A DNA stretch of 64,000 nucleotides from Emticicia sp. C21 (GTDB lineage: Bacteria; Bacteroidota; Bacteroidia; Cytophagales; Spirosomataceae), in the NCBI RefSeq assembly GCF_003418935.1, contig NZ_QVMT01000001.1, forward strand, positions 186,001 through 250,000, given 5' to 3'. The notes below the pieces were generated by a model. It was not told the origin of the DNA. It worked only from the letters and a program-made list of their open reading frames with translations, and ran no database searches. The position numbers and the translations under genes are program-made. Each line of letters begins with the position of its first letter. Position 1 is the stretch's first letter. Shown in pieces: positions 1 through 49,314 of this stretch.

Positions 1-26
1 TAGCTGCCTGCATAACAACTATTGCC

Positions 27-542
27 ATGAATAATAAAAAGAAAGCCTACAATTACTGTCCATTGAGTGCCACTCAAAAGAACATTACCCGTCTTTTTTG
101 GGTGTCTCCAACTACCAAAAAGAAACCTAAAAAGGTTACCAATATAGTGGAAACCTTTTTCAAAGAGAACAGAGATGGTATAGAGAAAAACAGAATTACT
201 ACTCCTAAATCGAAACCGGAAAAGGTTACCATTATGGTGGGAACCTTTTTCAAAGAGAGCAGAGATAGTTTACAGAAAATCAGAATTACGAATCCTAAAT
301 CGAAGCCAGAAAAGGTTACCATTATGGTGGGAACCTTTTTCAAAGAGAGCAGAGATAGTTTACAGAAAATCAGAATTACTACTCCTAAATTGAAACCGGA
401 AAAGGTTCCCAATATGGTGGAAACCTTTTTCAAAGAGAGCAGAGATAGTTTACAGAATATCAGAATTACGAATCCTAAATCGGAACCGGAAAAGGTTACC
501 ATTATGGTGGGAACCTTTTTGCATGAAGACAGCCGTAAATAA
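27..542 (+). CDS. Repeat-built ORF of 171 residues, doubtful gene
   Basis: The frame opens at an ATG and stays open for 171 codons. After about 35 ordinary residues it is built from five units of 30 residues, each beginning with a KVTIMVGTFFKES-like core and ending in an IRIT(N/T)PK(S/L)KPE-like linker. No known domain is recognised, and there is no signal peptide or membrane segment. The unit length of exactly 90 bp keeps the frame open, which fits either a real repeat protein or a recently amplified non-coding element. The opposite strand is also open for 142 codons over the same bases, so openness alone proves little. The same peptide core (KKVTN-VGTF) is encoded on the minus strand at 47.5-48.0 kb, but there the frame is broken. 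Translation is unproven. Confidence 0.3.
   Translation: MNNKKKAYNYCPLSATQKNITRLFWVSPTTKKKPKKVTNIVETFFKENRDGIEKNRITTPKSKPEKVTIMVGTFFKESRDSLQKIRITNPKSKPEKVTIMVGTFFKESRDSLQKIRITTPKLKPEKVPNMVETFFKESRDSLQNIRITNPKSEPEKVTIMVGTFLHEDSRK
130..520 (+). repeat. Five 90-bp direct repeats carrying a palindrome
   Basis: Copies of an imperfect palindrome start at 130, 220, 310, 400 and 490, exactly 90 bp apart. Each has a left arm AAAAGGTTACC (GGTTCCC in the fourth copy), a short AT-rich centre containing TATGGTG, and a right arm GGAACCTTTTT. The roughly 59 bp between palindromes are also repeated, with a few substitutions (CAAAGAGAGCAGAGATAG is shared by copies 2-4). The same palindrome occurs four times at 47503-47917 in the opposite orientation. 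Confidence 0.9.
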
Positions 543-667
543 TTAATATACCTAGATTACGGGATGGTTAGCAGAAGTTATTCCATTGTAGTGAAATTAA
601 AACAAGTTCACTGTAACCTTTTTTCAGAACCTAAGTATCCACACAAAAATCACTTTTAAATTTATTC

Positions 668-2095
668 ATGAAAAAGCTTATAACTGTATTAATGCTGATT
701 AGTCAGCTGGGGTTCGCACAATCCAAAGAAAAACAAGTAGAAGATTTCCTGCTTAAGCAGATGAAAGACTTCAAGATTCCAGGTATGCAGGTGGCAGTAG
801 TTCAAAGGGGCAAAATTGTATTTAGTAAGTCATTGGGCAAGGCCTATATTCAGGATAATATTGCGGTTGATGACCAAAGTATTTTTGCCATTAATTCCTG
901 TACCAAGTCTTTTACAGGCGTAGCTGCTATGCAATTGGTTGAAGAGGGTAAACTCGACTTAAATGCTCCAATCTCTCACTATATTGATAGTCTGCCGGCT
1001 CAGTGGCAACCCATTAAGATTCAGCAATTATTAGCCCATATTTCTGGTTTACCAGATATTTTGCGCATTCAGGAAAACACTAGTGCTGGTGCATTCAATG
1101 AAGCAAAATCATGGCAGAAAGTGATGACTTTACCCATGGATTTTCCTACCGGTAGTCAGTTCAGCTATAACCAGACTAATTATGTACTCCTGGGCAAGGT
1201 GATTAGTAAATTAAGAGGAAAGGATTTCACACAGGTATTTCAGGAAAAACAGTTTGATGTAGTTGGGATGCCACACACAGTTTTTGGAGATTCTCGTGAC
1301 ATAATCCCACATTATGCCCCAACTTACTCCTTAAAAAAAGCAATGGATGGGCAACGACTGCCAGAAGAGAAACTCACGATTAATTATGCGGAAGTTCCAC
1401 CCTCTCGCCGTGGAGGTACTGGCTTAAATAGTACAGCAGAAGACATGGCTAAGTGGGTAATTGCCTTACAGCAAGGTAAATTACTCAAAAAAGAGACTCT
1501 TAAAACCATGTGGTCGCCGATAACTTTTAACAACGGCAAGCCTACTAACTGGGCTTTGGGTTGGGGTGTAAACAAATTCCGTCCGAAACACTGGGCGGTC
1601 GGAATGACTGGAGGTGGTCGTTCAGCCTTTTTAGTTTATCCGGACGATGAGATGGCTGTTATTGTATTGACAAATTTGCAAGGCTCTTCTCCTGAAAACT
1701 GGATAGAAGAACTCGCAGGCTTTTTTAACCCTGAAATTCCCGCCTCTGACCCAATTACTTTATTGAGAATTGAACTTGATAAACGCGGCTATGACAAAGC
1801 CATGCAAGTAGTAGAAGAAGCCCGTAAAAAAGACCATGGTTTTAAACCAGATGAAAACGAACTCAACGATTGGGCCTATCGGGTCATGAGCAAGGACAAA
1901 AACAAAGAGGCACTTGAACTCTTTAAACTAAACGCAGCACTATATCCTGATAGCTGGAATACGTATGACAGTTTAGGAGAGGCATTACTGAGACTGGGGA
2001 ATAAGGAAGAAGCAAAAAAAATGTATCAGAAATCTGTAGAGCTGAACCCTAATAATAACGGGGGTAAACAGATATTGGAGAGATTGAGTAAGTAA
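668..2095 (+). CDS. Secreted serine hydrolase, class C beta-lactamase family, with C-terminal TPR
   Basis: 475 residues. A signal peptide (about 1-18, ending GFAQS) is followed by a beta-lactamase/DD-peptidase fold (PF00144) to about residue 350. The nucleophile motif is S77-C-T-K80 (SxxK). The second motif is at Y167, where the usual YSN reads Y-N-Q within FSYNQTNYVLLG. The third motif region reads MTGGGRSAF in place of KTG. Residues of about 400-475 form a tetratricopeptide-type repeat (ALYPDSWNTYDSLGEALL). Such proteins are periplasmic or surface esterases/peptidases more often than true beta-lactamases; the substrate cannot be read from the sequence. The ATG at 668 gives the signal peptide directly. 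A strong hairpin at 2121-2169 ends the transcript, so the gene looks monocistronic. Confidence 0.88.
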   Translation: MKKLITVLMLISQLGFAQSKEKQVEDFLLKQMKDFKIPGMQVAVVQRGKIVFSKSLGKAYIQDNIAVDDQSIFAINSCTKSFTGVAAMQLVEEGKLDLNAPISHYIDSLPAQWQPIKIQQLLAHISGLPDILRIQENTSAGAFNEAKSWQKVMTLPMDFPTGSQFSYNQTNYVLLGKVISKLRGKDFTQVFQEKQFDVVGMPHTVFGDSRDIIPHYAPTYSLKKAMDGQRLPEEKLTINYAEVPPSRRGGTGLNSTAEDMAKWVIALQQGKLLKKETLKTMWSPITFNNGKPTNWALGWGVNKFRPKHWAVGMTGGGRSAFLVYPDDEMAVIVLTNLQGSSPENWIEELAGFFNPEIPASDPITLLRIELDKRGYDKAMQVVEEARKKDHGFKPDENELNDWAYRVMSKDKNKEALELFKLNAALYPDSWNTYDSLGEALLRLGNKEEAKKMYQKSVELNPNNNGGKQILERLSK

Positions 2096-3639: not shown

Positions 3640-3962
3640 TGCTTCACAATTACTAGTTGTCTGTAACAATTTATTGGTTTTCTGAATCGCCTAGAATCAT
3701 AGATTTTATTTTACCTAATTATTACTTTGGCTGATAGAATTCAGCTAAAGTGGCTAGCTATTTGAGCTTATGATAACTCACCAAATTATTCATACCATCT
3801 ATTCAGAGAAACCTTTAAAGTACTCCTATTAAAACACAAATCCCTATCTCCTTTAAATAAATTTCTTACTCATTATTAGCAAAATTCTTTAAAGAATCTG
3901 AAATTTATTGTCAACATATAAGCACCCACGTAAGACCTATTATTTCAAAAGCTACTTCTTTT
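3640..3962. other. 323-bp gene-free gap
   Basis: AT-rich spacer between the YCII-like gene and the M43 protease gene. I see no coding frame, no strong hairpin and no perfect -7 box; it presumably holds the promoter of the protease gene at 3963. Confidence 0.5.
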
Positions 3963-5807
3963 ATGAAAACCCGCATTTTTACAGTCGTCACTATTCTTTT
4001 CTGTTTACTCTCTCTAACTGTATTTTCTCAAATCCAGTGTGGTACTGAGGAAATCAATAAGAACAATCCGGAACTGCAAAAGCAAATTCAGGAGAAAATC
4101 AAACGTATTGAGAAATCCGGAAATTTAGTTGACCCGAATACCGTATTCACTATTCCGGTGGTATTTATTGTATACAATAAAGGTGAGCTCGTGGGTGAGG
4201 GCTCTAATATTTCTACTGAAACTATTCTGCAGGAACTTAATACATTGAATGATGCATTCAGAGCAAAAAATGGCTTTAGCCCCTATAATGATATGAAAGT
4301 AGAGTTTGCTCTGGCCAATTGCGGCGACTTGAATAGTATCGTAAGAGTGAATGCCACAAGCGTACCTAATTATGTTGATAATGGTCTTGACTACAATGAT
4401 TTAATAATGATGTTCCAGTTAAGAGCTTTACATAACTGGAATGACCGTGATAATTATATTACTATAGAGCTAGTTCATAAAATGAATGGCGCCGGAGGAT
4501 TTGCCGGATATCTTGAAGGTTTTACTTTTATTGATGTGCGCTCATTTGGATTTGGTATTATGGCGCACGAGTTAGGGCACGTAATGAATCTGAAACATAC
4601 CTTTGAAGGAGATGTTTTCGGAACGCAATGCCCTGTGAATGATAATCCTGATGCAGACGGTGACATGATCAGTGATACCCCGCCTCATAAAAGCTGGCAA
4701 ACTTGTTTTAACACACCATCTACGTCTATTAATCCTTGTGATAGTCTTGAATATGGTGATATTTTCGAAAACTTTTTATCTTACAGTCAATATTGCTGGC
4801 ATAAATTTACTCCGAGACAAATTTTACGCGCCAGAATCAGTGTGGAAGCCATCAAACCTAGCTGGTTTAATTCTCCTTATCTATCAGGTCAGACCAACCC
4901 TCCTACCGGGACTTCTAACCTTAAATGTAGTACAGGTACGCTTAGTTTATCAGCCAATGGCTGCTTAGGTACTTATAGTTGGTATAGCACCAATACAGGA
5001 GGTGACACCTTAGCCACAGGGAAAAATTTTACCACTCCGGTGATTGAAACCACGACTACCTACTATGTCGATTGCAAAGTAGCTACCTGTGCCGCCTCCG
5101 TCAGAGTACCCGTCCAGGCTATCATTACTCCAATTAATGAATGTTATTGTGACTCTTATGCCACCTATCTTGGCGATGAAGAAATACTAAAGGTTAATTT
5201 TGCCAATCTAAGCAGTTCTTCTACTTGTAGTACTACAGGTGGGCCAGGCTCTTTAAACAGAGCTTACTCAAATTATACCTTATCAACTCCGGTGGAAGTC
5301 CGTAAAAATAACTCGTATCCCTTTTCGGTCCAGATTGGCACCTGTGGTGGATTTTATAATAATATGACGAAGATTTTCATTGATTTTAATCAGGACAAAG
5401 ATTTCAATGATGTCGGAGAAGAAGTATATGCATCATCTCTTTCTCAACAAGGGCCTCACATTGAAAGCGGTACAATCCTGATTCCGGCAAATGCTCTTTT
5501 AGGAATAACCCGTATGCGTGTTATTACTGTAGAAACTGGTAATATATCATCTATTACTCCATGCACCATTTATGGATTTGGAGAAACGGAAGATTATGCT
5601 GTCAATATTACGGTTTGTCCGAATGCTCTCAGCTATGAAAATATCAATCAGAATGCAGGTATATATGAGGCAACTACCAGTGTAAGCAGTAGAGCTAATA
5701 TCAGCACCCCAACGGCTTATCTGGCAGGACAATTCGTTATCCTTTTACCGGGCTTTTCAGCGGGGCCTAATGAAGTATTTACAAGTGCTATTGGTGGCTG
5801 CAATTAA
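3963..5807 (+). CDS. Secreted M43 (pappalysin-like) metalloprotease with Ig-like, GEVED and C-terminal sorting-type domains
   Basis: 614 residues. A signal peptide (about 1-22, TVFSQ) is followed by a short pro-region and an M43-type catalytic domain. The zinc site is H202-E-L-G-H206-V-M-N-L-K-H212 (HExxHxxGxxH-type with Asn in place of Gly). Downstream, ENFLSYSQYC stands where M43 enzymes have the Met-turn (usually NFMSY), so the methionine appears to be Leu. Then come an Ig-like module (about 318-395, CSTGTLSLSANGC...TTTYYVDC) and a GEVED-type domain with the calcium-like loop FIDFNQDKDFNDVGEE. The last 50 residues form a small beta domain (ILLPGFSAGPNEVF) ending Gly-Gly-Cys-Asn. That end resembles those of the two fungalysins downstream, which also have Cys as the second-last residue. 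It probably acts outside the cell on proteins; its substrate is unknown. Confidence 0.9.
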   Translation: MKTRIFTVVTILFCLLSLTVFSQIQCGTEEINKNNPELQKQIQEKIKRIEKSGNLVDPNTVFTIPVVFIVYNKGELVGEGSNISTETILQELNTLNDAFRAKNGFSPYNDMKVEFALANCGDLNSIVRVNATSVPNYVDNGLDYNDLIMMFQLRALHNWNDRDNYITIELVHKMNGAGGFAGYLEGFTFIDVRSFGFGIMAHELGHVMNLKHTFEGDVFGTQCPVNDNPDADGDMISDTPPHKSWQTCFNTPSTSINPCDSLEYGDIFENFLSYSQYCWHKFTPRQILRARISVEAIKPSWFNSPYLSGQTNPPTGTSNLKCSTGTLSLSANGCLGTYSWYSTNTGGDTLATGKNFTTPVIETTTTYYVDCKVATCAASVRVPVQAIITPINECYCDSYATYLGDEEILKVNFANLSSSSTCSTTGGPGSLNRAYSNYTLSTPVEVRKNNSYPFSVQIGTCGGFYNNMTKIFIDFNQDKDFNDVGEEVYASSLSQQGPHIESGTILIPANALLGITRMRVITVETGNISSITPCTIYGFGETEDYAVNITVCPNALSYENINQNAGIYEATTSVSSRANISTPTAYLAGQFVILLPGFSAGPNEVFTSAIGGCN

Positions 5808-29345: not shown

Positions 29346-32015
29346 CTACTCGCTCTTCAGACTCTTCACCGGATTCATCAACGCGGCCTTGATACCCTGA
29401 AAACTAACGGTGAGCAAAGCAATAACAATAGCTAGTATGCCTGCCAGCGCAAACATCCACCATTGCAAATCTATTTTGTAGGCAAAGTCTTGCAGCCATT
29501 GATTCATACCATACCAAGCCAATGGAGAAGCAATCAGAATAGAGATTATTACCAATATCAGGAAGTCTTTTACCAATAATTGCACAATACCGCTTACTGA
29601 TGCGCCTAATACTTTTCTGATCCCTACTTCTTTTTTACGTTGCTCCATAATAAAGGTGGACAAAGCAAATAATCCCAGACTGGCAATGATAATCGCCAAT
29701 ACCGCAAAAGCAGAAAATATCTGTTGCGTGCGTTGCTCACTCGCATAAAGCGCAGCAAATTTCTCGTCTAAGAAATAATATTCCATTGGTCCTGCAGGAT
29801 TGAAACTATCCCATTGTTTTTTGAGGTCGGCTATGAACCCGTTTACATCCGCCGTTTTGATTTTAATAACCATACCCCCGTAGTTTCTACCAAGCATCAT
29901 CATGGCAGGTGCTACTTTTTGCTTGACAGATGTATAATTAAAATCCTGCACAATACCCAAAACCTTAAACTCTACATTGCCCGAACGCACAATGCTTCTG
30001 CCAATCGGATTCTTACCTTTCCAACCTAACTCACGAACGGCAGACTCATTGATAATTACGCCTGAGGAGTCAGTCGAAAAATCTTTCGAAAAAGCTCGTC
30101 CCTGTTTAATTTTCATCCCCAGGGTATTGATGTAATCGTAGTCAATATTAAAAATATCGATATGAATCTCTACGCCATTACCATTCTCATTTTTTGGATA
30201 AATCTGTGTACCGTTTAGGTTATTATTACCTGGCACCATTCGGGAAATGCTGGCCGAAACTACCCGGTTATCTCGTTTCAATTGCTCCTGAAAGGCCAAC
30301 TGATTGCTACCTAATACACGGGCATCAGGCATAAATATGACCTGATCTTTATCATAGCCCAGCTTTTTGTTCTGCATATGTTGCAATTGCTGATAGACTA
30401 CGATTGTAGCTATAATTAATAAGGTAGAAACTGTAAACTGAAATACTATCAGGCTGCTTTGCAAAGGTTTTTTCTGTTTGCCACCTGTGAAAAGCATGCC
30501 CTTTAAAGTCTTGATGATACCAAATGACGATAAGAAGAAAGCCGGATAGATACCTGCAATAATACCTGATATAAAACTAACAAGGAAGATTGCCGCAATG
30601 ACTTTATAATCAAGGAAAAACCAGAAACTGACATTTTTAACAGCTAGTTGATTGAAATAAGGTAAGAATAAGAAGATAAGCAAATAGGCGAACACCATGG
30701 CAAAAAAGGTCAGTAACACTGATTCGGCCAGAAACTGCAATATCAACTGCTTTTTGACCGAACCCAATACCTTTCGAATGCCGACTTCTTTAGAACGCTT
30801 AGCCGATTGTGCCGTTGATAAATTGGTAAAATTAACGCAGGCCAACAAAAGAATAAATACTGCCAATGCCGAGAAAATATAGATATATTGTATATCACCA
30901 CTTGGTTCAATTTCGTACTTAGTACCGCCATATAAATGCAATTCAGTAAGTGGCTGCAGCAAAAAGCGAAAGGTGTCAACCGATTTCTTTGCTTCTGCCA
31001 GACTGATACCCATATCTTTCTGAATCTCTGGCACCACATATTTCATCACCAATTGTGGGAATTTCGCTTCCAGCTTCTTAGCATCGGCATTTTTCTCCAG
31101 TTCAATATAGGTATAAGGACCCAGGTTACTCCAGGTTGGATTAGTTATATGCCATGTCGACATACTCAAAAACGCATCGAAATGGAAATGCGAGTTATCT
31201 GGTACTTTATCAAACAAGCCTGTAATTTTATATTCGGTCTGTTGTGTTCCAATCTTTAATGACTTGCCAACAGGGTCCTGGTCACCAAAGTATTTAGTAG
31301 CCATGGCTTTAGAAATCACAATGCTATTGGGCTCAACCAATGCCTTATCAATATTACCCTCTAATAAGGGAATAGAGAACATTTTCATAAAATTGGCTTC
31401 GGCAAATGCCATGTGCTGCTCTTTAAACTGATTGTTTTCGTACTTTACAAAGTCGACAGCTTGTGATACCCTGGTAAAGTCCTTAATCTCCGGAAAAGTA
31501 TTTTTCATACCATCTCCTACAGCGTAGTCTGCATTAGGATATAAGGCAATATTGCCGTTTCCGGTAACTGCCAGGTTAACCCGATAAATTTGTTCGGCAT
31601 TAGCCACATGTCGGTCGTAGCTTAATTCACTGTAAACAAATACGGCGATAAGCATAAAACAGCTGATACCGATGGCTAATCCGAAAATATTAATGGCAGA
31701 AAATGCTTTGCTACGAGTCAGATTTCGCCAGGCGATGGTGAAGTAATTGCGAATCATAATGGGTGAAAATATTGAAACTGGATGAGAATAATTTGCATAT
31801 TGTGATTGTTCGACGAAACGACGCTTCAGGAAGTAAGGCCGAAAAAACCGGAGCACCTCCCATATATATAACCATTGAGCTTTTCTGAGCCCAAGCTCTC
31901 CTGCCTGCACTTCAAATTGCTCATGCATATCTCCTTGCAGTTCTTCTGCCAGATCATCAGGCAGAAAAGTATTCAGGAGTTTATCTGCCCATTTGGGAGG
32001 TGTTGGCGAGGCCAT
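29346..32015 (-). CDS. FtsX/MacB-type ABC permease with permease prefix domain (paralogue 5 of 5)
   Basis: 889 residues. The first 85 residues are the soluble 'permease prefix domain 2' (PPKWADKLLNTFLPDDL, EELQGDMHEQFE, then LKRR). A first membrane helix at about 105-125 is followed by a MacB-type periplasmic core, then three helices with the first FtsX domain (FILLLACVNFTNLSTAQ, KRSKEVGIRKVLG), a second periplasmic core, and a C-terminal FtsX domain (KEVGIRKVLGASVSGIVQ). It ends NPVKSLKSE. Such permeases lack their own ATPase and need a LolD/MacB-like ATPase, not found in this window. Last gene of the cluster and the most divergent of the five: it has SAKRSKEVG where the other four have R(S/T)EKRAKEVG. 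Confidence 0.9.
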   Translation of the reverse strand: MASPTPPKWADKLLNTFLPDDLAEELQGDMHEQFEVQAGELGLRKAQWLYIWEVLRFFRPYFLKRRFVEQSQYANYSHPVSIFSPIMIRNYFTIAWRNLTRSKAFSAINIFGLAIGISCFMLIAVFVYSELSYDRHVANAEQIYRVNLAVTGNGNIALYPNADYAVGDGMKNTFPEIKDFTRVSQAVDFVKYENNQFKEQHMAFAEANFMKMFSIPLLEGNIDKALVEPNSIVISKAMATKYFGDQDPVGKSLKIGTQQTEYKITGLFDKVPDNSHFHFDAFLSMSTWHITNPTWSNLGPYTYIELEKNADAKKLEAKFPQLVMKYVVPEIQKDMGISLAEAKKSVDTFRFLLQPLTELHLYGGTKYEIEPSGDIQYIYIFSALAVFILLLACVNFTNLSTAQSAKRSKEVGIRKVLGSVKKQLILQFLAESVLLTFFAMVFAYLLIFLFLPYFNQLAVKNVSFWFFLDYKVIAAIFLVSFISGIIAGIYPAFFLSSFGIIKTLKGMLFTGGKQKKPLQSSLIVFQFTVSTLLIIATIVVYQQLQHMQNKKLGYDKDQVIFMPDARVLGSNQLAFQEQLKRDNRVVSASISRMVPGNNNLNGTQIYPKNENGNGVEIHIDIFNIDYDYINTLGMKIKQGRAFSKDFSTDSSGVIINESAVRELGWKGKNPIGRSIVRSGNVEFKVLGIVQDFNYTSVKQKVAPAMMMLGRNYGGMVIKIKTADVNGFIADLKKQWDSFNPAGPMEYYFLDEKFAALYASEQRTQQIFSAFAVLAIIIASLGLFALSTFIMEQRKKEVGIRKVLGASVSGIVQLLVKDFLILVIISILIASPLAWYGMNQWLQDFAYKIDLQWWMFALAGILAIVIALLTVSFQGIKAALMNPVKSLKSE

Positions 32016-32069
32016 TGAGTGATTTAGCGAGTTAGTGATTGAGTGATTAATTTTGTCTTGAACTGTGAT

Positions 32070-34721
32070 TTATTCGTTTTTTAAACTTTTTACCGGATTC
32101 ATTAGTGCAGCTCTAACTGTATGGTAGCTAACTGTTAATATAGTGAGTAATAGCACCCCTGCACCTGTCAGAACAAAAATCCACCATGATATTTCGGTAC
32201 GATAAGTAAATTTAGCTAGCCAACCGGATAGTAAATAGTAGGCAATCGGTGTAGCAATCATCAAAGACAATATTACCAACAAGGCAAAGTCTTTGGAGAG
32301 CATTTTCCAGATGGCTAATACTGTAGCGCCTAGTACCTTACGTACGCCTATTTCTTTGGTTCGTTGTTCGGCAACGAAAGATGCCAGCCCGAATAATCCT
32401 AAACATGAGATAAAAATAGCCAGGACCGTGAACAGGTTAATGAGTTTAGCAAACTGCTGTGTATTGCCAAATTTCTTATTATAGGCCTCTTCAATAAACT
32501 GATATTCGAAAGGAGCATTGGGGCTATATTTTTTCAGTATCTGTTCAATTATTTTCAGACTTTTAGCTTTATTAGAAGCAGGATTGAGCTTGATATTTAG
32601 TACATTCCCTGCATTTTTATCCAGAAAGAAAGACGTAGGTCGAACAGGTTCAAAAGGGGATTCCATTACCATATCTTTAATAACACCGATAATGGTATAT
32701 GTTTTATCATTCCAAGTTACCTGCTGACCAATAGGGTTTTTCATGCCCATTAATTTAATCGCTGCTTCGTTGAATATCATGCCGGAGGAATCAGCACGGG
32801 AATTGCTGGCGAAATCACGGCCTTCTCTGATTTGCCAGCTGATTGTTTTACCAAAATCAGGTGTTACATCAATGGAGCAGAATACCGCCTGCTGCGTGGG
32901 GTCTTTACCTTTCCAGCTATAACCGCCAGTAGAATACCAGATTTCTGTGGTTGGACTACCAGATTCAGCTACTTCCAGTATGGCTCCGCTACTTTTGAGT
33001 TCTTCTCTTACAGCGCTAAAATGCTGATGAATATCCGGCATAGTCATTCCCAGCATAATCACATCATTACGATTATAGCCAATCGGGCGACTTTCGGCAA
33101 ATTGAATCTGGCGATAAATCACCCATGTGCCAACGATTAATGTAATGGATACTGTAAATTGTGAAACTACCAATACTTTGCGGGGAATACTCGCCAATCG
33201 TCCTGTCTTGAATGTACCTTTCAGCACTTTGATAGGCTGAAATGAAGACAAATAAAAAGCAGGATAGCTACCTGCCAGCAAGCCTGTAAATAGAGCAAAG
33301 CCTATACCCAAACCCCAGAAAATTGGGTTAGCCCATAAAAGTGTCAATTTTTTATCAGCTATTTCATTAAATATAGGTAGAAGCAAATAGGCCGCAACAA
33401 TAGCAATCGCAAAGGCTATCATTGTAACTAATACAGACTCGCTAATGAACTGGATAATTAATTGTCCACGAATCGAGCCGATAGCTTTACGGATACCCAC
33501 TTCTTTAGCTCTTTTTTCGGTACGGGCCGTTGAAAGGTTCATGAAATTGATACAAGCCAGAAGCAAGACAAAAATACCTATCAGGCTTACTATCCATAGC
33601 TGCGTTATTTTTCCGCCATGACTGATGCCATTTTCAAAATTTGAACGCAAATGCCAGTCTGACATGGGGTGTAAGAAGAGCTCGGGTTTACTTTGTGCCA
33701 CTTCAGCATCGTCGACATGATTGCGTTTTACATTTTTGATTTTTGCCGACACTCTTGACAAATCAGCCTTATCTGCCAGTTGCACGTAAGTCATTACAGT
33801 ACTACTATTCCAGGGTGAATTCATCTGACTAATCCATTTTTCACTATCATAAAACAATTTCCATGGTGCAAAAAAACCGATGTCAGCCAAAGAAGAATTA
33901 TCAGGGAGGTCTTCATAAACACCTGTTACTTTTACATCGTGTCTGGCATCAATTTTCATTATTTTGCCTAATGGGTTTTCATTGCCAAAATACACCTGAG
34001 CCACTGATTCTGATAAGAGAATTGAATGAGGGTCAGTGAGTCCGGCACGTGAACCTCTTAGCATTTTCAGACCAAATACTTCCGGGGCATCTGGTTCTAT
34101 GTAGGTTCCTCTTTTTCTGAGTTTCAAATCTCCATAAGCCAATACCCGATTGGTATTCCACGAAGCCATCAACACATGAGAGAAATCGTTTCCATAAACT
34201 TGTCTTAGTTCTTCACCCAAAGGAGCAGGTACAGCCTTTTGAGTAGTGATTTGTCCATTATTATTGGTCTGATTCTGCATTACCTGAGCAATGCGATTAT
34301 AGTTCTTGTGGTATTTATCGAAAGTCAATTCATCGTGCAGCCAAAGACCAATTAATATCGTAACGGTCATTCCAATGGCTAAACCAACTATATTTATAGC
34401 TGAATAGCCTTTCTGTTTAATCAGGTTTCGCCAGGCGATTTTTATATAATTTCTTAGCATAATGGGGTTTAATAAGGAATAATTATTCATATTATCAGCC
34501 TTTGCTGAAAGGCGTCGTTTCAAAAAATAGGGTCTGCAAAATCTCAGTACTTCCCACACATAAAGGAGCTTTGCTTTGGTTAATCCGACTTCTTCTATAT
34601 GTATCTCAAACTGTTCATGAATATCTCCCTGCAGTTCTTCTGCCAAATCATCTGGTAGGAAAGCATTTAAGAGTTTATCTGCCCATTTAGGAGGAGTTAA
34701 ATAATGAGGTTTTTCAGTCAT
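32070..34721 (-). CDS. FtsX/MacB-type ABC permease with permease prefix domain (paralogue 4 of 5)
   Basis: 883 residues from the ATG at 34721; a TTG two codons upstream is in frame. Prefix domain (PPKWADKLLNAFLPDDL, EELQGDIHEQFE), single helix, periplasmic core, FtsX domain 1 (FVLLLACINFMNLSTAR, KRAKEVGIRKAIGS), second core, FtsX domain 2 (KEIGVRKVLGATVLAIWKML). The periplasmic cores differ more than the membrane parts from the sister genes, as expected if each handles a different cargo or signal. 54 bp separate it from the next gene downstream, in the run that begins at padR. Confidence 0.9.
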   Translation of the reverse strand: MTEKPHYLTPPKWADKLLNAFLPDDLAEELQGDIHEQFEIHIEEVGLTKAKLLYVWEVLRFCRPYFLKRRLSAKADNMNNYSLLNPIMLRNYIKIAWRNLIKQKGYSAINIVGLAIGMTVTILIGLWLHDELTFDKYHKNYNRIAQVMQNQTNNNGQITTQKAVPAPLGEELRQVYGNDFSHVLMASWNTNRVLAYGDLKLRKRGTYIEPDAPEVFGLKMLRGSRAGLTDPHSILLSESVAQVYFGNENPLGKIMKIDARHDVKVTGVYEDLPDNSSLADIGFFAPWKLFYDSEKWISQMNSPWNSSTVMTYVQLADKADLSRVSAKIKNVKRNHVDDAEVAQSKPELFLHPMSDWHLRSNFENGISHGGKITQLWIVSLIGIFVLLLACINFMNLSTARTEKRAKEVGIRKAIGSIRGQLIIQFISESVLVTMIAFAIAIVAAYLLLPIFNEIADKKLTLLWANPIFWGLGIGFALFTGLLAGSYPAFYLSSFQPIKVLKGTFKTGRLASIPRKVLVVSQFTVSITLIVGTWVIYRQIQFAESRPIGYNRNDVIMLGMTMPDIHQHFSAVREELKSSGAILEVAESGSPTTEIWYSTGGYSWKGKDPTQQAVFCSIDVTPDFGKTISWQIREGRDFASNSRADSSGMIFNEAAIKLMGMKNPIGQQVTWNDKTYTIIGVIKDMVMESPFEPVRPTSFFLDKNAGNVLNIKLNPASNKAKSLKIIEQILKKYSPNAPFEYQFIEEAYNKKFGNTQQFAKLINLFTVLAIFISCLGLFGLASFVAEQRTKEIGVRKVLGATVLAIWKMLSKDFALLVILSLMIATPIAYYLLSGWLAKFTYRTEISWWIFVLTGAGVLLLTILTVSYHTVRAALMNPVKSLKNE

Positions 34722-34900
34722 TTTCAATCGTTTTTATTTACTTACTTGTTTGTGTGTATATAATCGGTTTGCCACAATGCACACTACAAGCACGATGTTT
34801 CACAATTGACTCTCTTCGAAATGGTAGTCTTCCCATGCAAAAGTTCGCACCAACATTCCGTTTTACATTTCTCAGTTTTACATTTTTCTGTTTAAATGTA

Positions 34901-37546
34901 TCACTCACTCCTTAGGCTTTTCACCGGGTTTACCAAAGCCGCTTTAATGGCCTGAGAACTTACAGATACCAATACAATAAAAATGGCTGATGCAAGGGTA
35001 ACGATAAATATCCCTATTCCGATAGTGATGCGGTAATTATAATCCTTTAGCCATTGCTCCATTACATACCAGCCGATTGGCGCACCTATAAAAAAGGCAA
35101 TCAATAATAAGCGGATGAAATCTTTGGTTAATAGTTGTACTACACTAAAAACAGGTGCACCCAGAGCCTTGCGTATGCCAATTTCTTTGGTACGTTGTTG
35201 TGCTGTATATGCTGCCAAACCAAATAAGCCAAGACAGGCAATGAAAATGGTAAGCCCTGTAAAGAGACTCGTTAAAGTGCCTGTTCGTTCTTCATTTTCA
35301 AATTTTGCTTTATAAGAGTCATCCGCAAACATGTATTCAAACGGATAGGCAGGATTATATTTGGCAAAAATTTTCTCTAAAGTTGCCAGATTGTCAGCCA
35401 TCGGTTTAGCAGGATTTAGCCTCATGCTTATCCAGCCCAAACCAATCGGACCACCGGGTCCTTCAATCAATGCAGGATTGATGCGGTCGAAAGGAGATGC
35501 ATAAATAAAATCCTTCACCACCCCTACTATATGCCATTCTGCATTACCGAATTTAATGGTAGTTCCTACAGGACTTTTCATATGCATGGTTTTTACAGCT
35601 GTTTCGTTCAATAGTACTGCGCTTGAATCGGTTGGATATTTTCGCACATCAATTTCTCTTCCTGCCACTAAGGTTGTTCCGGTTGTTTTCAGGAAATTGG
35701 CATCTGTACCAAATCTGTCAAACTCGATATCTTTATCACTCGGTGTACTGCCGGGCCAGGTTACACCCCATTGGCGAAGGTTTATAGTACTGATTGGCCC
35801 TAAAGATTTACCCATGGAAACCACTGCACCACTCGCCAATAATTCCTGTTGTAGTGGTTCATAATGGCTGGCTAAATCACCAGGTAAATCAGTGAAAAGC
35901 AGGTGATTCTGATTAAAGCCTTTGTCTCGAATTTGTGCATAATCTATTTGTTGGCTAATAATTAGAGTTGAAACAATGAGTACAATGGCAAAGGTAAATT
36001 GCATGACTACCAGAATTTTTCTGGGTGTAAAAGCCGCTCTCTGCGAACGAAGCATGCCTTTTAGTACCTTAGATGGCTGAAAATTGGCAAGGAAGAAGGC
36101 TGGGTAAGACCCGGCAAGCACACCTGTAAATATTAACATCCCAAGGGCAGCCAACCAGAAATAGGTTGAAGTAAAATTCAGAGAAAGTGATTTACCCGTC
36201 AATTGATTGAACATCGGCAAGCTAAGCAGAACAATTAGTAGAGCAACAATTCCTGCAAAGAACGTTAGCAGTACCGACTCTCCTATGAACTGCAGAATCA
36301 GAGATGTTTTCTGTGCTCCCGCTACCTTACGAACCCCTACTTCCTTAGCTCTTTTTTCACTTCTGGCGGTGCTTAGGTTAATGAAATTAACAGCGGCTAT
36401 CAGCAAAATAAAGATGGCAATCAGGCCAAATAGGCGCACGGTTACAATGCGTCCTTCTACTAATTGACCGTTTTCCTGTTTTGAATGCAAATACCATTTA
36501 CTGGCAGGATGCAGATAAATCTGACGATTTTTCACATCATCCAATATTCCTTTCAGATGCTCGGCTGTTACACTTTTGATTTTCTGATTTACTGCACCTT
36601 CATCCGCATGCTCTTTCAATAAAATATAAGTAAAATCATTGTTTGACTCCCAGGCATCAGACCCCCAACCAAGATTTACAAAGTAATTATAAGGTAACAA
36701 ATAAGAGATGTAGTTAAATCTGGTGTTATCAGGTAAATTCTCTAATACCCCGGTCACTGAAAAACTTTCTTTATTATTTACCTGAACTACCTTACCTATA
36801 GCTAGCTTAGTACCAAATAATTTTTCAGCTAAAGCTTCAGTAATCACAATACCATTATTTCCTGCCAACACGCTTTGCACATTGCCTGATTTCAATGGAA
36901 AATCAAATAAATTCAGAAAAGAAGGATCGACAAAAGCCCCGCTTGCATTCATTTTTGTATCACCGACAGTTAAAGTTAACCCGGTGGAGCGGAATCTGGA
37001 TGTTTCTTCTATTTCGGCATAATTCTGTTTTAGGGTTGGTGCCAGAAGTCTTGGAGTTGTTTCCCATGTTTGAGGCGTTCCACTGAAAATGTCTTTGTTG
37101 TAGACCTGATATAATCGGTCAGTTTTGCTATAAAATCTGTCGTATTGCAACTCATCTTGTATCCAAAGGATAATCAGTGTACAAGCTGCCAGACCAACAG
37201 CCAAACCACTGATATTGATAAACATATAGCTTTTAGCACGCATCAGGCTACGAAAAGCGATTTTCAGATAATTTCTTAGCATAATGGGGTTTATTAAAGA
37301 GTAAATATTATTGAAATCATCAGCCTGCGCTGATAAACGACGCTTTAAAAAATAAGGTCGGCAAAACCTCAGTACTTCCCAGACATACTGCCACCTGGCT
37401 TTGGTCAATCCAAACTCTTCCACTTGCATCTCAAACTGCTCGTGCATATCACCCTGCAGTTCTTCCGCCAAATCTTGCGGTAGAAAAACCTTTAAGAGTT
37501 TATCTGCCCATTTGGGTGGAGTGAGATTGTTGGGCTGTTTAAGCAT
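34901..37546 (-). CDS. FtsX/MacB-type ABC permease with permease prefix domain (paralogue 3 of 5)
   Basis: 881 residues with the same plan as its sisters: prefix domain (PPKWADKLLKVFLPQDL), helix (MFINISGLAVGLAACTLIILW), core, FtsX 1 (IFILLIAAVNFINLSTAR, KRAKEVGVRKVAGA), second core, FtsX 2 (KEIGIRKALGAPVFSVVQLL). It ends NPVKSLRSE. Flanking gaps are 173-179 bp, larger than the others. They contain related texts (ACGATGT, CACAATTG) on both sides, so these spacers were probably duplicated along with the genes. Confidence 0.9.
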   Translation of the reverse strand: MLKQPNNLTPPKWADKLLKVFLPQDLAEELQGDMHEQFEMQVEEFGLTKARWQYVWEVLRFCRPYFLKRRLSAQADDFNNIYSLINPIMLRNYLKIAFRSLMRAKSYMFINISGLAVGLAACTLIILWIQDELQYDRFYSKTDRLYQVYNKDIFSGTPQTWETTPRLLAPTLKQNYAEIEETSRFRSTGLTLTVGDTKMNASGAFVDPSFLNLFDFPLKSGNVQSVLAGNNGIVITEALAEKLFGTKLAIGKVVQVNNKESFSVTGVLENLPDNTRFNYISYLLPYNYFVNLGWGSDAWESNNDFTYILLKEHADEGAVNQKIKSVTAEHLKGILDDVKNRQIYLHPASKWYLHSKQENGQLVEGRIVTVRLFGLIAIFILLIAAVNFINLSTARSEKRAKEVGVRKVAGAQKTSLILQFIGESVLLTFFAGIVALLIVLLSLPMFNQLTGKSLSLNFTSTYFWLAALGMLIFTGVLAGSYPAFFLANFQPSKVLKGMLRSQRAAFTPRKILVVMQFTFAIVLIVSTLIISQQIDYAQIRDKGFNQNHLLFTDLPGDLASHYEPLQQELLASGAVVSMGKSLGPISTINLRQWGVTWPGSTPSDKDIEFDRFGTDANFLKTTGTTLVAGREIDVRKYPTDSSAVLLNETAVKTMHMKSPVGTTIKFGNAEWHIVGVVKDFIYASPFDRINPALIEGPGGPIGLGWISMRLNPAKPMADNLATLEKIFAKYNPAYPFEYMFADDSYKAKFENEERTGTLTSLFTGLTIFIACLGLFGLAAYTAQQRTKEIGIRKALGAPVFSVVQLLTKDFIRLLLIAFFIGAPIGWYVMEQWLKDYNYRITIGIGIFIVTLASAIFIVLVSVSSQAIKAALVNPVKSLRSE

Positions 37547-37725
37547 TTAAAATAGTTTTTTATTTGCTACGATGTACACAAATGGCACGATGTTACACAA
37601 TTGGTTCACTGCGATCTGGAAGCGTCTGCCACTCGGATAGCATAATAATTCGGCCCTTTTACGGCAACGGCTGCAGCATTTTTCAGTCCCAAAACTCCAT
37701 GCCCTCTGCACCATGCCCCATGCGA

Positions 37726-40377
37726 TTACTCACTTCGCAGGCTTTTCACCGGATTTATCAGTGCAGCTTTAATACTCTGAAAACTTACGGTTAATAGCGT
37801 GATTAATAAGGCTCCAATACCCGAAACAGCAAAAATCCACCATGATAATTCAGTATGGTATTTGTATTCCTGAAGCCAGTTATTTAAGAAATACCAGGCA
37901 ACAGGAGTAGCAATGGCAAAGGCAATAAGTACCAATATCACAAATTCTTTAGATAATAACCTCCAGAGGTTGAATACACTGGCGCCTAATACTTTACGTA
38001 CACCAATTTCTTTGGTACGTTGCTCGGCTACAAAGGATGCCAGACCGAAAAGGCCTAAGCAGGAGATAAAAATGGTGAGTATGGCAAAATAGAGGGCTAA
38101 CGTTCCAATACGTTCTTCGGCTGCAAATTTCCTGGCGTATTCCTCGTCGGCAAACTTGTAGTTGAATATCGAAGCCGGGTTATACTTCCTGAAAATTGAT
38201 TCAATCGTACCTAATGCCTCACTGGCACTTACATTTGGATTGATTTTGAAATTGACAAAATTGCCGGTATACTTTGAGAGGTAAAAAAACGACTGACGGG
38301 CAGGTGTATAGGGTGACTCCATCACCATATCCTTAATAACCCCGATTATTTTATATTGCAATGCATTTTTACCGCTCCCTTCTCTGACAACCGTACCGAT
38401 CGGGTTCTTTAAACCCATAAATTTCACAGCTGCCTCATTCACTATCAGACTTGATGAATCGGTGCTATACTCTTCGGAGAAATCTCTGCCTGCTTTTAAT
38501 TCCCAGTCTATTGTTTTGCCGAATTGATGAGATACACCAATCACAGCAAAGTCGGGGCTTTGGGCCGGGTCTTTCCCCTCCCAGCTAAAACCTCCGTTTA
38601 CATGCCATACACCTGTAAGCGGGCTTTCTGATTCCGCCACTTCTGTCACCACTCCTGACGCTTTCAGTTCTGTACGGAAAACATCGAAATGGTTATGGAT
38701 GTCTGAAGTGGTTGTTTGTACATAGAGCAATCCATTCCGGTTATAACCTATCGGACGGTTTTTGGCAAATTGAATCTGTCTGAAAACCATAAAAGTGCCA
38801 ATAATTAGGGTAACGGATACTGTAAACTGAACCACTACCATCACTTTACGAGGCAAAGCCGCAAAGCGCCCAACCCGAAAAGTACCTTTGAGAATGCTGA
38901 CTGCCTGAAAAGATGACAAATAAAAAGCAGGATAGCTTCCGGCAATTAATCCCGTAAGGAGGCAAAAAGCTAACCCTACTGTCCAAAAAACAGGGTTAGT
39001 CCAAAGCATAGTCATTTGCTTATCGGCCAATTGGTTAAATAATGGCAATAATAATTGAACGCCTATTAATGCTATGGCAAAAGCAATAAAGACAACCAAT
39101 AAGGATTCGCTCAGAAACTGACCGATTAATTGCCCTCGTAATGAGCCAACTGCCTTACGCACACCTACTTCTTTGGCTCGTTTTTCAGAACGGGCAGTGC
39201 TTAAATTCATAAAATTGATGCAGGCCAGCAGCAATACAAAAACACCAATAATACCAAAAAGCCATACAAACTGGATTTGACCGCCAACATTCATACCGTT
39301 CTTAAACTCTGCATATAAATGCCATTTACTCATGGGTTGCAGAAAAATTTCAGGCTTAAACGATTTCTGAAAATCATCTACTTTGCGCAACTTAAGATCT
39401 TTTATTCTGGCAGATACGCTTGCCATATCAGCCTTCTCTGCCAGTTGCACAAATACCTGAAATGAATTGTTATCCCATTTAGTTTCAGAAAATTTCACCC
39501 AATCTCTGATGTCCACATTAACCTTCCAGGGCACCATATAATCCATATTATGGAACTGAGTATTATGTGGCAAATCCTCATAAACACCTGTTACCTTGAC
39601 GGAAATCATATTATCAATTTTCACTGTCCGATTCAGCGGGTTGCTATTTCCAAACAGGTCTTCGGCCATACTTTCAGAAATCAACATCGAATTAGGTTCC
39701 TGTAAACCTGCTCTTGTTCCTTTCAGCATTGTGAGTGATAGCATTTCTGTGGCATCAGGTCCTATATAATTTCCTTCTTTCCAGATTTTTTTATCTCCTA
39801 TCGAAATCGTATGCCCTTCTGTCCAGGAAGAAAGAATGATATATTTAAAATCCCCCCCATAGCTATCGCGCAGTTCTTTAGCTGTCGGGATAGGCACTGC
39901 TACACCAGTTCCAACTTCTCCATTCACAGTCTGAGATTGCATTACCTGAGCAATCCTGTCGTAATTTTTAAAAGATTTGTTATAAGAGAACTCATCATAA
40001 ATCCATAAGCCAATCAGCATTATAACGGTGAGGCCAACGGCCAGGCCCCCAATATTGATGAGAGAATAGTTCTTATATTTGAGTAAATTTCTCCAGGCGA
40101 TTTTTAAGTAATTGCTTATCATAATTAGTGAGAATATAGAACTAGTGTTATAATTATCTGTTTGCTGCACCCAGCGACGCTTTAAATAATAAGGCCGACA
40201 AAATTTTAGTACTTCTGCCAGATACAGCCATCGTGCTTTAGTAAATCCCACCTCTTCCACCTGCACCTCAAATTGCTCGTGCATATCCCCTTGCAGTTCT
40301 TCTGCGAGATCCTCAGGAAGAAAAACCATAAGGAGCTTATCTGCCCATTTTGGGGGAGAGTTTTTTTGCTCTTTCAT
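37726..40377 (-). CDS. FtsX/MacB-type ABC permease with permease prefix domain (paralogue 2 of 5)
   Basis: 883 residues. Prefix domain (PPKWADKLLMVFLPEDL), helix near 105-125 (NYSLINIGGLAVGLTVIMLIG), core, FtsX 1 (VFVLLLACINFMNLSTAR, KRAKEVGVRKAVGS), second core, FtsX 2 (KEIGVRKVLGASVFNLWRLL). Similar throughout to the paralogue at 32070, with which it shares the two-core layout and the RPIGYNRN motif after a shared QFTVSxTLI helix. No ATPase domain. Lies 131 bp downstream of paralogue 1. Confidence 0.9.
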   Translation of the reverse strand: MKEQKNSPPKWADKLLMVFLPEDLAEELQGDMHEQFEVQVEEVGFTKARWLYLAEVLKFCRPYYLKRRWVQQTDNYNTSSIFSLIMISNYLKIAWRNLLKYKNYSLINIGGLAVGLTVIMLIGLWIYDEFSYNKSFKNYDRIAQVMQSQTVNGEVGTGVAVPIPTAKELRDSYGGDFKYIILSSWTEGHTISIGDKKIWKEGNYIGPDATEMLSLTMLKGTRAGLQEPNSMLISESMAEDLFGNSNPLNRTVKIDNMISVKVTGVYEDLPHNTQFHNMDYMVPWKVNVDIRDWVKFSETKWDNNSFQVFVQLAEKADMASVSARIKDLKLRKVDDFQKSFKPEIFLQPMSKWHLYAEFKNGMNVGGQIQFVWLFGIIGVFVLLLACINFMNLSTARSEKRAKEVGVRKAVGSLRGQLIGQFLSESLLVVFIAFAIALIGVQLLLPLFNQLADKQMTMLWTNPVFWTVGLAFCLLTGLIAGSYPAFYLSSFQAVSILKGTFRVGRFAALPRKVMVVVQFTVSVTLIIGTFMVFRQIQFAKNRPIGYNRNGLLYVQTTTSDIHNHFDVFRTELKASGVVTEVAESESPLTGVWHVNGGFSWEGKDPAQSPDFAVIGVSHQFGKTIDWELKAGRDFSEEYSTDSSSLIVNEAAVKFMGLKNPIGTVVREGSGKNALQYKIIGVIKDMVMESPYTPARQSFFYLSKYTGNFVNFKINPNVSASEALGTIESIFRKYNPASIFNYKFADEEYARKFAAEERIGTLALYFAILTIFISCLGLFGLASFVAEQRTKEIGVRKVLGASVFNLWRLLSKEFVILVLIAFAIATPVAWYFLNNWLQEYKYHTELSWWIFAVSGIGALLITLLTVSFQSIKAALINPVKSLRSE

Positions 40378-40508
40378 ATTTGTTTGGTTTGAGTAATCGA
40401 GTGAATGTGTGATTTAGTGATTAAGGTCGAGCTACACTATTATTTACTTTTCTCTAGTGCTTATTTTATCAATCACTCATTCACTAAATCATTCAATCAC
40501 TAATTCTT

Positions 40509-46181: not shown

Positions 46182-47402
46182 CTAATCAACCACTCTTACG
46201 CTCAAAGCAGTTTTAGAGTTAGGTTTAGCTACTTCATAAGCTATCAACAATTTGCCGTTGGCAATGAGACTTGTCGCATTCTGGCCGTAGTCTGAGCCGC
46301 TTAATTGTTGATTGTCGAGTACTTTGCCACCCACTACTTTACTGTAGAAAATCTGGCTGGTACCACCTTCGGTAGTTTGTTCCCATACAAAAACGCCTTG
46401 TTTATCATCGGCGGCTACATGGCCATTTTTAGCACTGGCGCTTAAAACTTTTAATAATTTACCATTGGCATCTACTAATCTTACGCCTGATTTCTCATTA
46501 GCTCCCGAAAACCAGGTAGCCAGAGTTCCATTGGGAGTTGCTACAGAAGTAACCCCTGAATGTGGACAACCTTTAACCTCCCATTTATCGTTATGCAGAA
46601 TCTGAGGTTTTGAGAAACTCGCGCCATTATTTGAGGATGTCATACGTGCAATGTCACGTATATCATCGTTATTATCACGATAGAATACATTCAGTGTACC
46701 TTTATTATCTACCAGAAGGCTGATATTACAACAATCGCATACTACAGGGTCAATGAGTTTTTCGGGTTGAAAGACACCATTTTTGGTAATTACCATGCGT
46801 AAATCTCTTTCTTCGTGTTTGGTGCTGCCTTTTACATCTTTCAGATAAGCCACCGCAATTTCATCGTTTGCCAATACAACAGCATCAAAAAAACCTCTCA
46901 CCAATCTTGAAGTATCTGAATCAACCGAAGTTGGAGCTGTCCACGTATTTCCATTGTCTTTCGAAACCATGTACTTGATTTGAATTTCTCGCTTAGGTGC
47001 AGGAGTAGGATTGTGATTACCATGTCCCCCTTTATGAGCTGTTGGTGCCACAGGTGCAACTACAATTGTACGATAAGAGAAAACTGCTGCCATTGTACCA
47101 TCCTTCTTAAACAATAATCTCGGGCGCATCAGGCGACTGCTACCCAAGCTTGCATCGGCAAAAATCAGTTTTTTATCACTAAACTTCTTCCCACCATCTT
47201 TTGAAGTTGAGAAATAGAGTGATAATACGTTTTTTTCGTCTTTTTCTGTCCAGTACAATACCGGTTCACCTTGTGTGTTTTTGGTAAATGTAGGTAAAGA
47301 ATAAGCATGAGAATTATCGGCAAAAGAGGTATTTTGTGCCATTGTGAAAGAAGATAGCCCCATTATTAATAGGGCCATGATTACAAAAATATTTTTCTTC
47401 AT
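46182..47402 (-). CDS. Secreted BNR/sialidase-like beta-propeller protein
   Basis: 406 residues with a signal peptide (MKKNIFVIMALLIMGLSSFTMAQ). Several Asp-box/BNR-type loops appear: STSKDGGKKF, SKDNGNTW and TSSNNGASF, as in six-bladed sialidase-type propellers. The catalytic Arg triad and Asp/Tyr of true sialidases are not evident, so it is better called sialidase-like. Two unusual features are the histidine/proline stretch APTAHKGGHGNHNPTPAP and a CDCC (PVVCDCCNIS) with a later GCPHSG, which together look like metal-binding groups. Its substrate or partner is unknown. Confidence 0.75.
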   Translation of the reverse strand: MKKNIFVIMALLIMGLSSFTMAQNTSFADNSHAYSLPTFTKNTQGEPVLYWTEKDEKNVLSLYFSTSKDGGKKFSDKKLIFADASLGSSRLMRPRLLFKKDGTMAAVFSYRTIVVAPVAPTAHKGGHGNHNPTPAPKREIQIKYMVSKDNGNTWTAPTSVDSDTSRLVRGFFDAVVLANDEIAVAYLKDVKGSTKHEERDLRMVITKNGVFQPEKLIDPVVCDCCNISLLVDNKGTLNVFYRDNNDDIRDIARMTSSNNGASFSKPQILHNDKWEVKGCPHSGVTSVATPNGTLATWFSGANEKSGVRLVDANGKLLKVLSASAKNGHVAADDKQGVFVWEQTTEGGTSQIFYSKVVGGKVLDNQQLSGSDYGQNATSLIANGKLLIAYEVAKPNSKTALSVRVVD

Positions 47403-47406
47403 TCTA

Positions 47407-47998
47407 TTAGTATTTTGAGGTAAATGATTGTTGATTTAAATTGTATTTACAGAACTGTTTAATTTTAACTCTAATCTTTTTGACTATATCGATATCCTTG
47501 GTAAAAAAGGTTCCCACCGTATCGGTAACTTTTTTAGGTTCCGTTTTTATGGATGGAACTTTAGCAAACTCCCAAATTCCTGCTGAAAAGTAGACCAATC
47601 GCTTTTTTAAACAGGCGTCTGGTGTGTTCCTTGGTCAAAAAGGTTCCCACTATATTGGTAACCTTTTTTAGCTCCCTTTTCGTGGCCTCTATTTTGATAA
47701 CCTGCTGATATATAGCCAATTGCTCTTTTATCATGCTTCCGCTGCAGTCCTCAATCGTAAAGGTTCCCACCATATTGGTAACCTTTTTCAGCTCATTTTC
47801 GTGGCTGTAATTTTGAAAAACTGTGAAATTCCTGCTGGAAATAAGGCCAATCGCTCTTTTAAAGAGGCTTTGGTTCGCTCCTAGGTGAAAAAGGTTCCCA
47901 CTATTGGTAACCTTTTTCAGTAGCACTTTAATAGTCATTAATACCTCTATCATCGCTATTAATTTTCTTTGACTGAGTGTCTCCTTCTCTTCATTCAT
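47407..47998 (-). pseudogene. Degenerate repeat ORF (second array)
   Basis: Starting from the ATG at 47998 (MNEEKETLSQRK), the frame runs through three of the four palindromes and stops at 47561; the sequence then continues in another frame through the fourth (47407-47598). Comparison of equivalent linkers shows one extra base in the unit next to 47580, which explains the frame change. The encoded pieces (KKVTNMVGTF, LFK(R/K)AIGL(I/L)(F/S)SRN) match the left-end array only in the KKVTN-VGTF core. No domain is recognised, so this may be a repeat element rather than a broken gene. Confidence 0.3.
47503..47917 (-). repeat. Four copies of the palindromic element in opposite orientation
   Basis: Copies at 47503-47535, 47637-47669, 47759-47788 and 47888-47917 have arms AAAAAGGTTCCCAC and GGTAACCTTTTT, i.e. 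the reverse complement of the left-end element. Unlike the left array, spacing varies (122-134 bp). The linkers share a second motif, CCAAT(C/T)GCTCTTTTA or close variants, at about 47595, 47717 and 47849. Confidence 0.88.
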
Positions 47999-48324
47999 GG
48001 CAATAGTTATTAAGTAAAATATTACCCCAGAATGAGCGTCATCTAAATTTCCGGTTTTAGATGATGCTTTCAAAATGAATAGGGAGCTTTTTAATGAAAT
48101 CAGACTGATACACCTAACCCGGTATGGCGCCTGTTGCCGTTGAGTGAGAAACCCAGCTTGGGCATCCAAGATATAAACTTCTACTATTTAGAATAATTCT
48201 AAAGAACAAATCTAAAGGAGTATGGCTTAGTATATAAGAAAAATTAATGGAATTTTAGCAAATCAAAAATCCTGTAGCGTAAATCAGAAAGATTAAATAA
48301 ATTGGCAATAAAATTATCAATCTT

Positions 48325-49146: not shown

Positions 49147-49147
49147 C

Positions 49148-49230
49148 CACGGCTTTAGGGGTATTCTGAAAAGAATTGAGAGAGTCCCTTTGAACCTGAT
49201 ACGGTTGATACCGACGTAGGGAAAAGCGAA
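49148..49230 (+). ncRNA. TPP riboswitch (thi box) leader
   Basis: The conserved halves of the thiamine pyrophosphate riboswitch are readable: GGCTTTAGGGGTATTCTG, then TTGAGAGAGTCCCTTTGAAC with the ACCTGATACGGTTGATACCG hairpin and the CGTAGGGAAAAGCG close. The AGGG/CCCT pair and GATAC-type bulge match the known fold. It lies about 85 bp before thiM. When TPP is abundant, translation or transcription of the operon should drop. The exact 3' boundary and mechanism are not readable. Confidence 0.93.
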
Positions 49231-49314
49231 TAATCTATAGCTTCGCGCAATATATATTATCGGCTTTTATTTCAAAGCAATCTTCTTTAGCCATTGTATT
49301 TAAAATCAAAAACA

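Follow-up and report, generated by a model that had tools for sequence, protein, structure and literature searches.

This locus raises the question of why one palindrome of about 31 bp recurs in two oppositely oriented arrays in the window, by which we mean the whole stretch of 64,000 nucleotides of Emticicia sp. C21 that was analysed. The first-pass annotation had listed nine copies, and all nine were found, five on the plus strand (130-520) and four on the minus strand (47504-47917), the loop being shorter in one of the latter. The consensus is the 31-mer AAAAGGTTACCAATATGGTGGGAACCTTTTT. Each of the five copies of array 1 departs from it at 1-2 positions, and the three full copies of array 2 at 1-3 positions; in a control with 20 shuffles of the window, a single place lay within 9 mismatches of the palindrome. 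Below, L-numbers denote loci in stretches fetched from the genome of the window (G000, here C21; 6.64 Mb, 33 contigs) and from that of Emticicia sp. BO119 (G001), and terS is the gene for the small terminase. The features of the window are as follows.

1..611, plus strand: window part of element 1, which starts about 390 nt before the window
27..542, plus strand: ORF read as a terS remnant from by-eye comparison with L009 and L125, an AYNYC segment followed by five repeat units
130..160, plus strand: palindrome copy 1 of array 1
220..250, plus strand: palindrome copy 2 of array 1
310..340, plus strand: palindrome copy 3 of array 1
400..430, plus strand: palindrome copy 4 of array 1
490..520, plus strand: palindrome copy 5 of array 1
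668..2095, plus strand: co-oriented gene 3' of element 1, beta-lactamase/serine hydrolase family, N-terminus exported-looking by eye
46182..47402, minus strand: co-oriented gene 3' of element 2, BNR-repeat protein, N-terminus exported-looking by eye
47504..47534, minus strand: palindrome of array 2
47637..47667, minus strand: palindrome of array 2
47757..47787, minus strand: palindrome of array 2
about 47888..47917, minus strand: palindrome of array 2 with shortened loop
47561..48169, minus strand: ORF of 202 aa taken to be the terS remnant in element 2, its stop preceding the last palindrome
48045..48107, minus strand: conserved leader core of element 2, converted from minus-strand positions 1894-1956 of L011

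Palindrome arrays in the window and across genomes

In array 1, a frame of 179 aa runs open across all five copies. The core KKVTN-VGTF, which had been ascribed to every copy, is encoded by these five but not throughout array 2: KKVTNMVGTF and KKVTNIVGTF are encoded by one copy each, the shortened copy encodes KKVTNSGNLF, and one palindrome comes after the stop codon at which the 202-aa ORF ends. A scan of the window with Rfam at gathering thresholds called nothing but one TPP riboswitch (49147-49239, plus strand). Elsewhere in the window, five ORFs of 881-889 aa stand in a row on the minus strand (29346-43163), possibly as a tandem gene family.

With up to 3 mismatches allowed, the pattern matches 255 times in the C21 genome (135 and 120 on the two strands) and 99 times in that of BO119 (49 and 50); since the site is a palindrome, many places are counted twice, once per strand. 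By counting copies in 40 fetched places of C21, 113 were obtained, all in a single orientation within each place, and the spacing between copies is 75-90 nt in 55 of 73 cases. A match was present in 11 of 58 genomes, C21 included; the palindrome occurs at scale only in C21 and BO119, and the other nine have one or two matches each. When the exact pattern was run against a collection of genome contigs, from which C21 itself was possibly left out, 28 stretches were returned, all of BO119. As there are dozens of such places in the genome, the two arrays of the window do not mark the ends of a 48-kb segment, as had been proposed. Nor is an inversion between them required. Each array points at its own downstream gene, and their opposite orientation follows from this. 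A CRISPR-like reading of the arrays was rejected because their spacers recur between loci.

The palindrome had also been taken for a possible mobile, REP-like element. What stands of this is that the copies are dispersed and mostly intergenic, and that three of the loci examined are empty in relatives. REP/BIME sequences and the palindromic elements of Rickettsia, as far as the excerpted source describes them (PMC3733652), are likewise short palindromes in many copies, some within genes. The arrays of Emticicia differ in having no GTAG tag, one orientation per array and a place within a terS-derived unit; the hairpin has no GTAG foot as in the REP definition of that excerpt, the base before AAAA being mostly G or A and the foot A-rich. 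Proteins with the PF01797 domain are present in C21 and would suit movement by a RAYT (Y1) transposase, but all 11 genomes that were searched have them (in 10 above the cut-off), and two of these have palindromes at scale. Since the GTAG foot is absent, Y1 transposases occur in the genus with or without the palindrome and the copies run head to tail within a longer unit that has a leader of its own, strict REP/RAYT membership was rejected, and REP/BIME-type palindromes moved by such a transposase are an extremely improbable explanation.

The small terminase gene that carries the repeat unit

The palindrome is an in-frame unit (KVTNMVGTF) within a gene for a phage-type small terminase. At L009, an open ORF of 231 aa includes three in-frame units and matches PHROG 309 (the terminase small subunit) with an E-value of 5.5e-41; its BO119 orthologue has an in-frame stop close to the N-terminus. 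At L125, an ORF of 308 aa with five units matches the same family (E 5.5e-43), as do the palindrome-free TerS proteins of L126, L128 and L129 (E 1e-40 to 9.5e-54). TerL adjoins the palindrome-free terS in C21 (L126), in BO119 (L128) and in a BO119 prophage with portal and head genes (L129). This adjacency was seen only at these three loci, and no TerL neighbour was met beside a palindrome-bearing terS; relatives of TerL number one in C21 and two in BO119. The structure model of the L009 TerS is poor (pLDDT 50.9), with helices in its N-terminal region. L009 also contains a CRISPR-like array (about 13-965; G000:C1:156512-157464) with 15 copies of a 24-nt word at 65-67 bp spacing, which precedes its open repeat-bearing terS by about 0.65 kb.

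L126 and L128 are one chromosomal locus in both species, with flanking blocks 77-87% identical. Their terS-terL pair (7741-9793 in L126, 9685-11842 in L128; TerL 82% identical in protein) apparently stands without the rest of a phage. Among 10 scanned neighbours of L126, one gave a weak virion-protein match (E 9.7e-6), two belong to families of unknown function, one is a regulator and six had no match. In tblastn, the L126 protein matched 401 of the 50,697 phage records, with identities under 60% throughout, and several among the best 10 of the 401 are annotated as terminase small subunit. The leader common to the element loci is also found upstream of terS-terL in L128.

When the proteins are aligned, the repeats fall in the linker ahead of the PDxxAQIFWLKNR motif; L126 has a single such linker, which corresponds to one unit. 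The unit of the open genes thus originates from this linker; for the remnants the same origin is probable from the leader, the unit and a partial N-terminus. The window ORF at 27-542 is without most of the HTH core and without the IFWLKNR motif, and it gave no match of its own to the PHROG 309 profile; it is read as terS-derived from the by-eye comparison, the repeat unit and the leader. Both arrays of the window are read as remnants of decayed terS copies.

The dN/dS ratio is 0.16 between L009 and the 218 codons that are open in its BO119 orthologue, 0.15 between L125 and L099, and 0.23 between L125 and L009; in the palindrome-free terS pair it is 0.16 (dS 2.1), and dS of TerL is saturated. 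The range of 0.15-0.23 means that some copies have been under selection at the protein level. This purifying selection on solitary open genes is consistent with the palindrome being a site bound by the very TerS that it encodes, so that a solitary terS with its site would be a minimal packaging parasite of a helper phage, mostly dead now. A cis element inside terS has a counterpart in phage P22, where the pac site lies within the terS gene according to the excerpted source (PMC9611059). The dispersed copies with empty sites in relatives, the same-family prophage in BO119 and the terS-terL pair in both species also fit. However, the terS of the prophage and of both terS-terL loci has no palindrome (best 12-15 mismatches to the 31-mer), the exact pattern was not found in viral contigs, and none of the 80 viral relatives that were kept from 441 came closer than 11 mismatches, as in shuffles. 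Elements of 0.7-1 kb would also leave little room for anything beyond terS, and we consider this recognition site unlikely. The Emticicia protein shares its family (PHROG 309) with the TerS of tailed phages, and TerL adjacency in its palindrome-free copies, but terS is here mostly solitary, multicopy and chromosomal, and the phage relatives examined were without the palindrome.

Decay, spread and constraint of the elements

A conserved leader lies ahead of most palindrome arrays. Among loci found with a leader HMM in the fetched stretches, 51 of 55 in C21 and 26 of 28 in BO119 have a palindrome (at most 3 mismatches, within 650 nt); those without one are the terS-terL loci L126 and L128, the contig ends L134 and L160, and L127 and L165. 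Most of the 55 leader-bearing loci of C21 are decayed terS copies, consisting of leader, palindrome array and tail, and few are still open. Element 1 of the window (L010) is absent from BO119, where the orthologous gap is about 100 bp vs about 1 kb in C21. The sites of L018 and L019 are empty both in BO119 and in a third species (G008); at L018, where C21 has about 740 bp between the flanks, these abut in the relatives apart from 15 and 14 bases that did not align. At the three empty sites, whose flanks are only about 77-81% identical, neither terminal inverted repeats nor target duplications were recognised by eye. Two other repeats were noticed in the fetched stretches. One, of about 60 bp (L138, about 3940-4000), is interspersed, with many matches in G008 and BO119; the other, of 28 bp (L019, about 981-1008), occurs on both strands in many places of G002 and G008 and is perhaps another palindromic family of the genus.

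An orthologous element locus was present among the 28 BO119 stretches for 16 of the 40 C21 places. The array is longer in C21 in 13 of 14 comparable pairs (2-4 copies vs 1-2), L009 having three in both; at L033, BO119 also has a third copy. Units within one array are sometimes near-identical, as in L019 and L010. Such lengthening and likeness would be expected if the palindrome had no function and were a hotspot of amplification or gene conversion, homogenised by slippage or recombination, its conservation being only apparent. Conversion tracts would then need a length of about 31 bp, as spacers in C21 are 63% alike in pairwise comparison vs 85% for the last palindromes; moreover, conservation peaks in the outer stem arms, and the orientation towards genes is left unexplained. 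We hold this reading to be possible, though not probable.

By comparing 17 orthologous pairs (one of 18 was skipped), differences were found at 248 of 1070 leader-core sites vs 81 of 1023 palindrome sites (BO119 copy against best C21 match), so that divergence of the 31-mer is about three times below that of the leader; for the last copies alone, 57 of 527 sites differ. This conservation is partly selected for, because most loci were first found through the palindrome, and the BO119 stretches, picked by exact match, hold at least one perfect core each by choice. A search with the leader alone (40 candidates scored per genome) gave six new C21 loci: three with a palindrome (1-2 mismatches), one at a contig end, and two with neither palindrome nor leader core. 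With copies of more than 7 mismatches excluded, conservation is 0.90 at fourfold sites vs 0.93 at codon positions 1 and 2 in C21 (146 copies), and 0.985 vs 0.971 in BO119 (40 copies). Along the palindrome in C21, it is 0.95-0.99 in the outer arms (1-7 and 24-30), 0.84 at position 31 and 0.74-0.96 at positions 12-20. Watson-Crick pairing is in excess of 500 shuffles at pair 8-23 (164 of 186 copies, shuffle maximum 161) and pair 10-21 (181 of 186, maximum 178), it equals the shuffle maximum at pair 6-25 and shows no excess at other pairs; A9-G22 is a conserved mismatch in the stem. Covariation gives modest support, at few pairs and not at most. From the slow rate, the conserved fourfold sites and some compensatory changes, the palindrome appears to be kept as DNA or RNA rather than as peptide.

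The proposal of a small repeat-protein family holds insofar as the palindrome lies within one family, the small terminase; most copies, on the other hand, are without the rest of the protein. That the unit is conserved for its peptide is suggested by the five in-frame units of array 1, by the dN/dS of the open terS genes and by copy spacings that are multiples of three in 40 of 73 cases. The remaining 33 of 73 are not, fourfold sites are conserved as much as others, and at most loci the protein around the unit is gone, which makes the peptide a very improbable object of the conservation. Confinement to one protein family under purifying selection, which would have spoken against a mobile element, was seen in the few open genes, but in most copies it is the nucleotides that are conserved.

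Gene context, known systems and possible function

In the main context pass (ORFs of at least 130 aa, clusters with both neighbours), the gene on the 3' side was co-oriented in 47 of 48 C21 clusters and 24 of 24 in BO119, two counts that are not independent since many loci are common to both. Where the gap is codirectional, the element has the direction of the gene downstream at 21:0 (C21) and 11:0 (BO119). Divergent gaps hold 26 and 13 elements, respectively, and are uninformative on orientation; convergent gaps hold 1 and 0. Among 112 background gaps, 69 are codirectional, 22 divergent and 21 convergent. With a looser pass (ORFs of at least 100 aa), 42 of 45 were co-oriented, with 20:1 in codirectional gaps. 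The downstream genes include, by N-terminal sequence, what we take to be atpA (L138), fusA (L144), sucA (L016) and glnS (L133). By a simple hydrophobicity rule, exported-looking products were no clear bias among them (23 of 48 vs 16 of 41 window ORFs). The motif TAnnTTTG is present in the stretch from array to start codon in 10 of 43 loci vs 12 of 45 upstream of window genes; as this is like the background, the element as a promoter donor is unsupported.

We propose that a phage-type terS was copied to dozens of places and that its linker turned into a palindromic, in-frame tandem unit. Most copies have decayed to leader, palindrome array and tail, in which the 31-nt palindrome is apparently still constrained as a nucleic-acid hairpin. 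Lying upstream of a host gene and in its orientation, these A-tract/stem/T-tract hairpins could act as bidirectional terminators or insulators, by which upstream transcription would be kept apart from the downstream gene. The folding energy is -12.0 kcal/mol on one strand and -10.9 kcal/mol on the other; with its A and T tracts, such a predicted hairpin would have the shape of a bidirectional intrinsic terminator. A terminator scanner called none of the palindromes of array 1 and one of array 2. Bidirectional termination does not explain the fixed orientation, which may come from the manner of insertion instead. At L018, the element stands between two genes whose flanks nearly meet in relatives, and its tail has no TAnnTTTG motif, so that strong termination there would need another promoter. 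It also counts against terminators that the open terS genes would hold them inside themselves. Termination or insulation is nevertheless the most likely function of the arrays, and to the statement as a whole, terS-derived hairpin arrays as terminators or insulators ahead of host genes, we give about an even chance.

In the open-licence literature searched, the palindrome family was not found described. The nearest published idea found, as excerpted, is PARCEL (PMC2996958), with tandem in-frame units of about 25 residues and dyad symmetry of the DNA; it is dispersed and patchily distributed, and some of its examples have a VTNM..F-like core. The Emticicia unit too is a tandem coding repeat with dyad symmetry, but by eye it is without the W..S and FNQD residues of the PARCEL excerpt, it resides in a terminase gene, and its palindrome persists where the frame is lost. 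Against the PARCEL profiles, DUF285 (Pfam) scored 19.3 bits for L009, below the cut-off of 25, and did not match L125, and TIGR02167 (NCBIfam) did not match the repeat-bearing terS protein; membership was rejected on these grounds. Nearest in anatomy, as far as the excerpt goes, are the BrickBuilt MITEs of Porphyromonas gingivalis (PMC4596501), also of the Bacteroidota, which are intergenic, up to about 1 kb long and composed of a leader, tandem direct repeats and a tail. Their repeats are 23 nt long and they have terminal inverted repeats; no terminal repeats were recognised by eye on the Emticicia element, and the excerpt mentions no terminase gene for BrickBuilt. PARCEL, BrickBuilt, tailed-phage TerS and REP/BIME would thus be the closest known systems, and each appears to differ from the Emticicia element.

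If the proposed terS-derived hairpins are what they seem, one sequence is under two constraints, as a coding repeat in the few terS genes that are still open and as a nucleic-acid hairpin in dozens of decayed ones. The graded series from palindrome-free terS-terL through repeat-bearing terS to the decayed array bears on how a phage gene fragment can become a genome-wide, oriented, gene-upstream element, and it poses the question of the means by which a lone terminase gene spreads. A more speculative answer, which we rate as unlikely, is that the solitary terS is a dispersing selfish element with a palindromic site for its own protein in the coding sequence, and that dead copies are kept by the host as oriented hairpin modules before genes such as the presumed atpA and fusA. 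If true, this would represent a mobile family based on a packaging gene, and a way in which a phage gene can become regulatory DNA.
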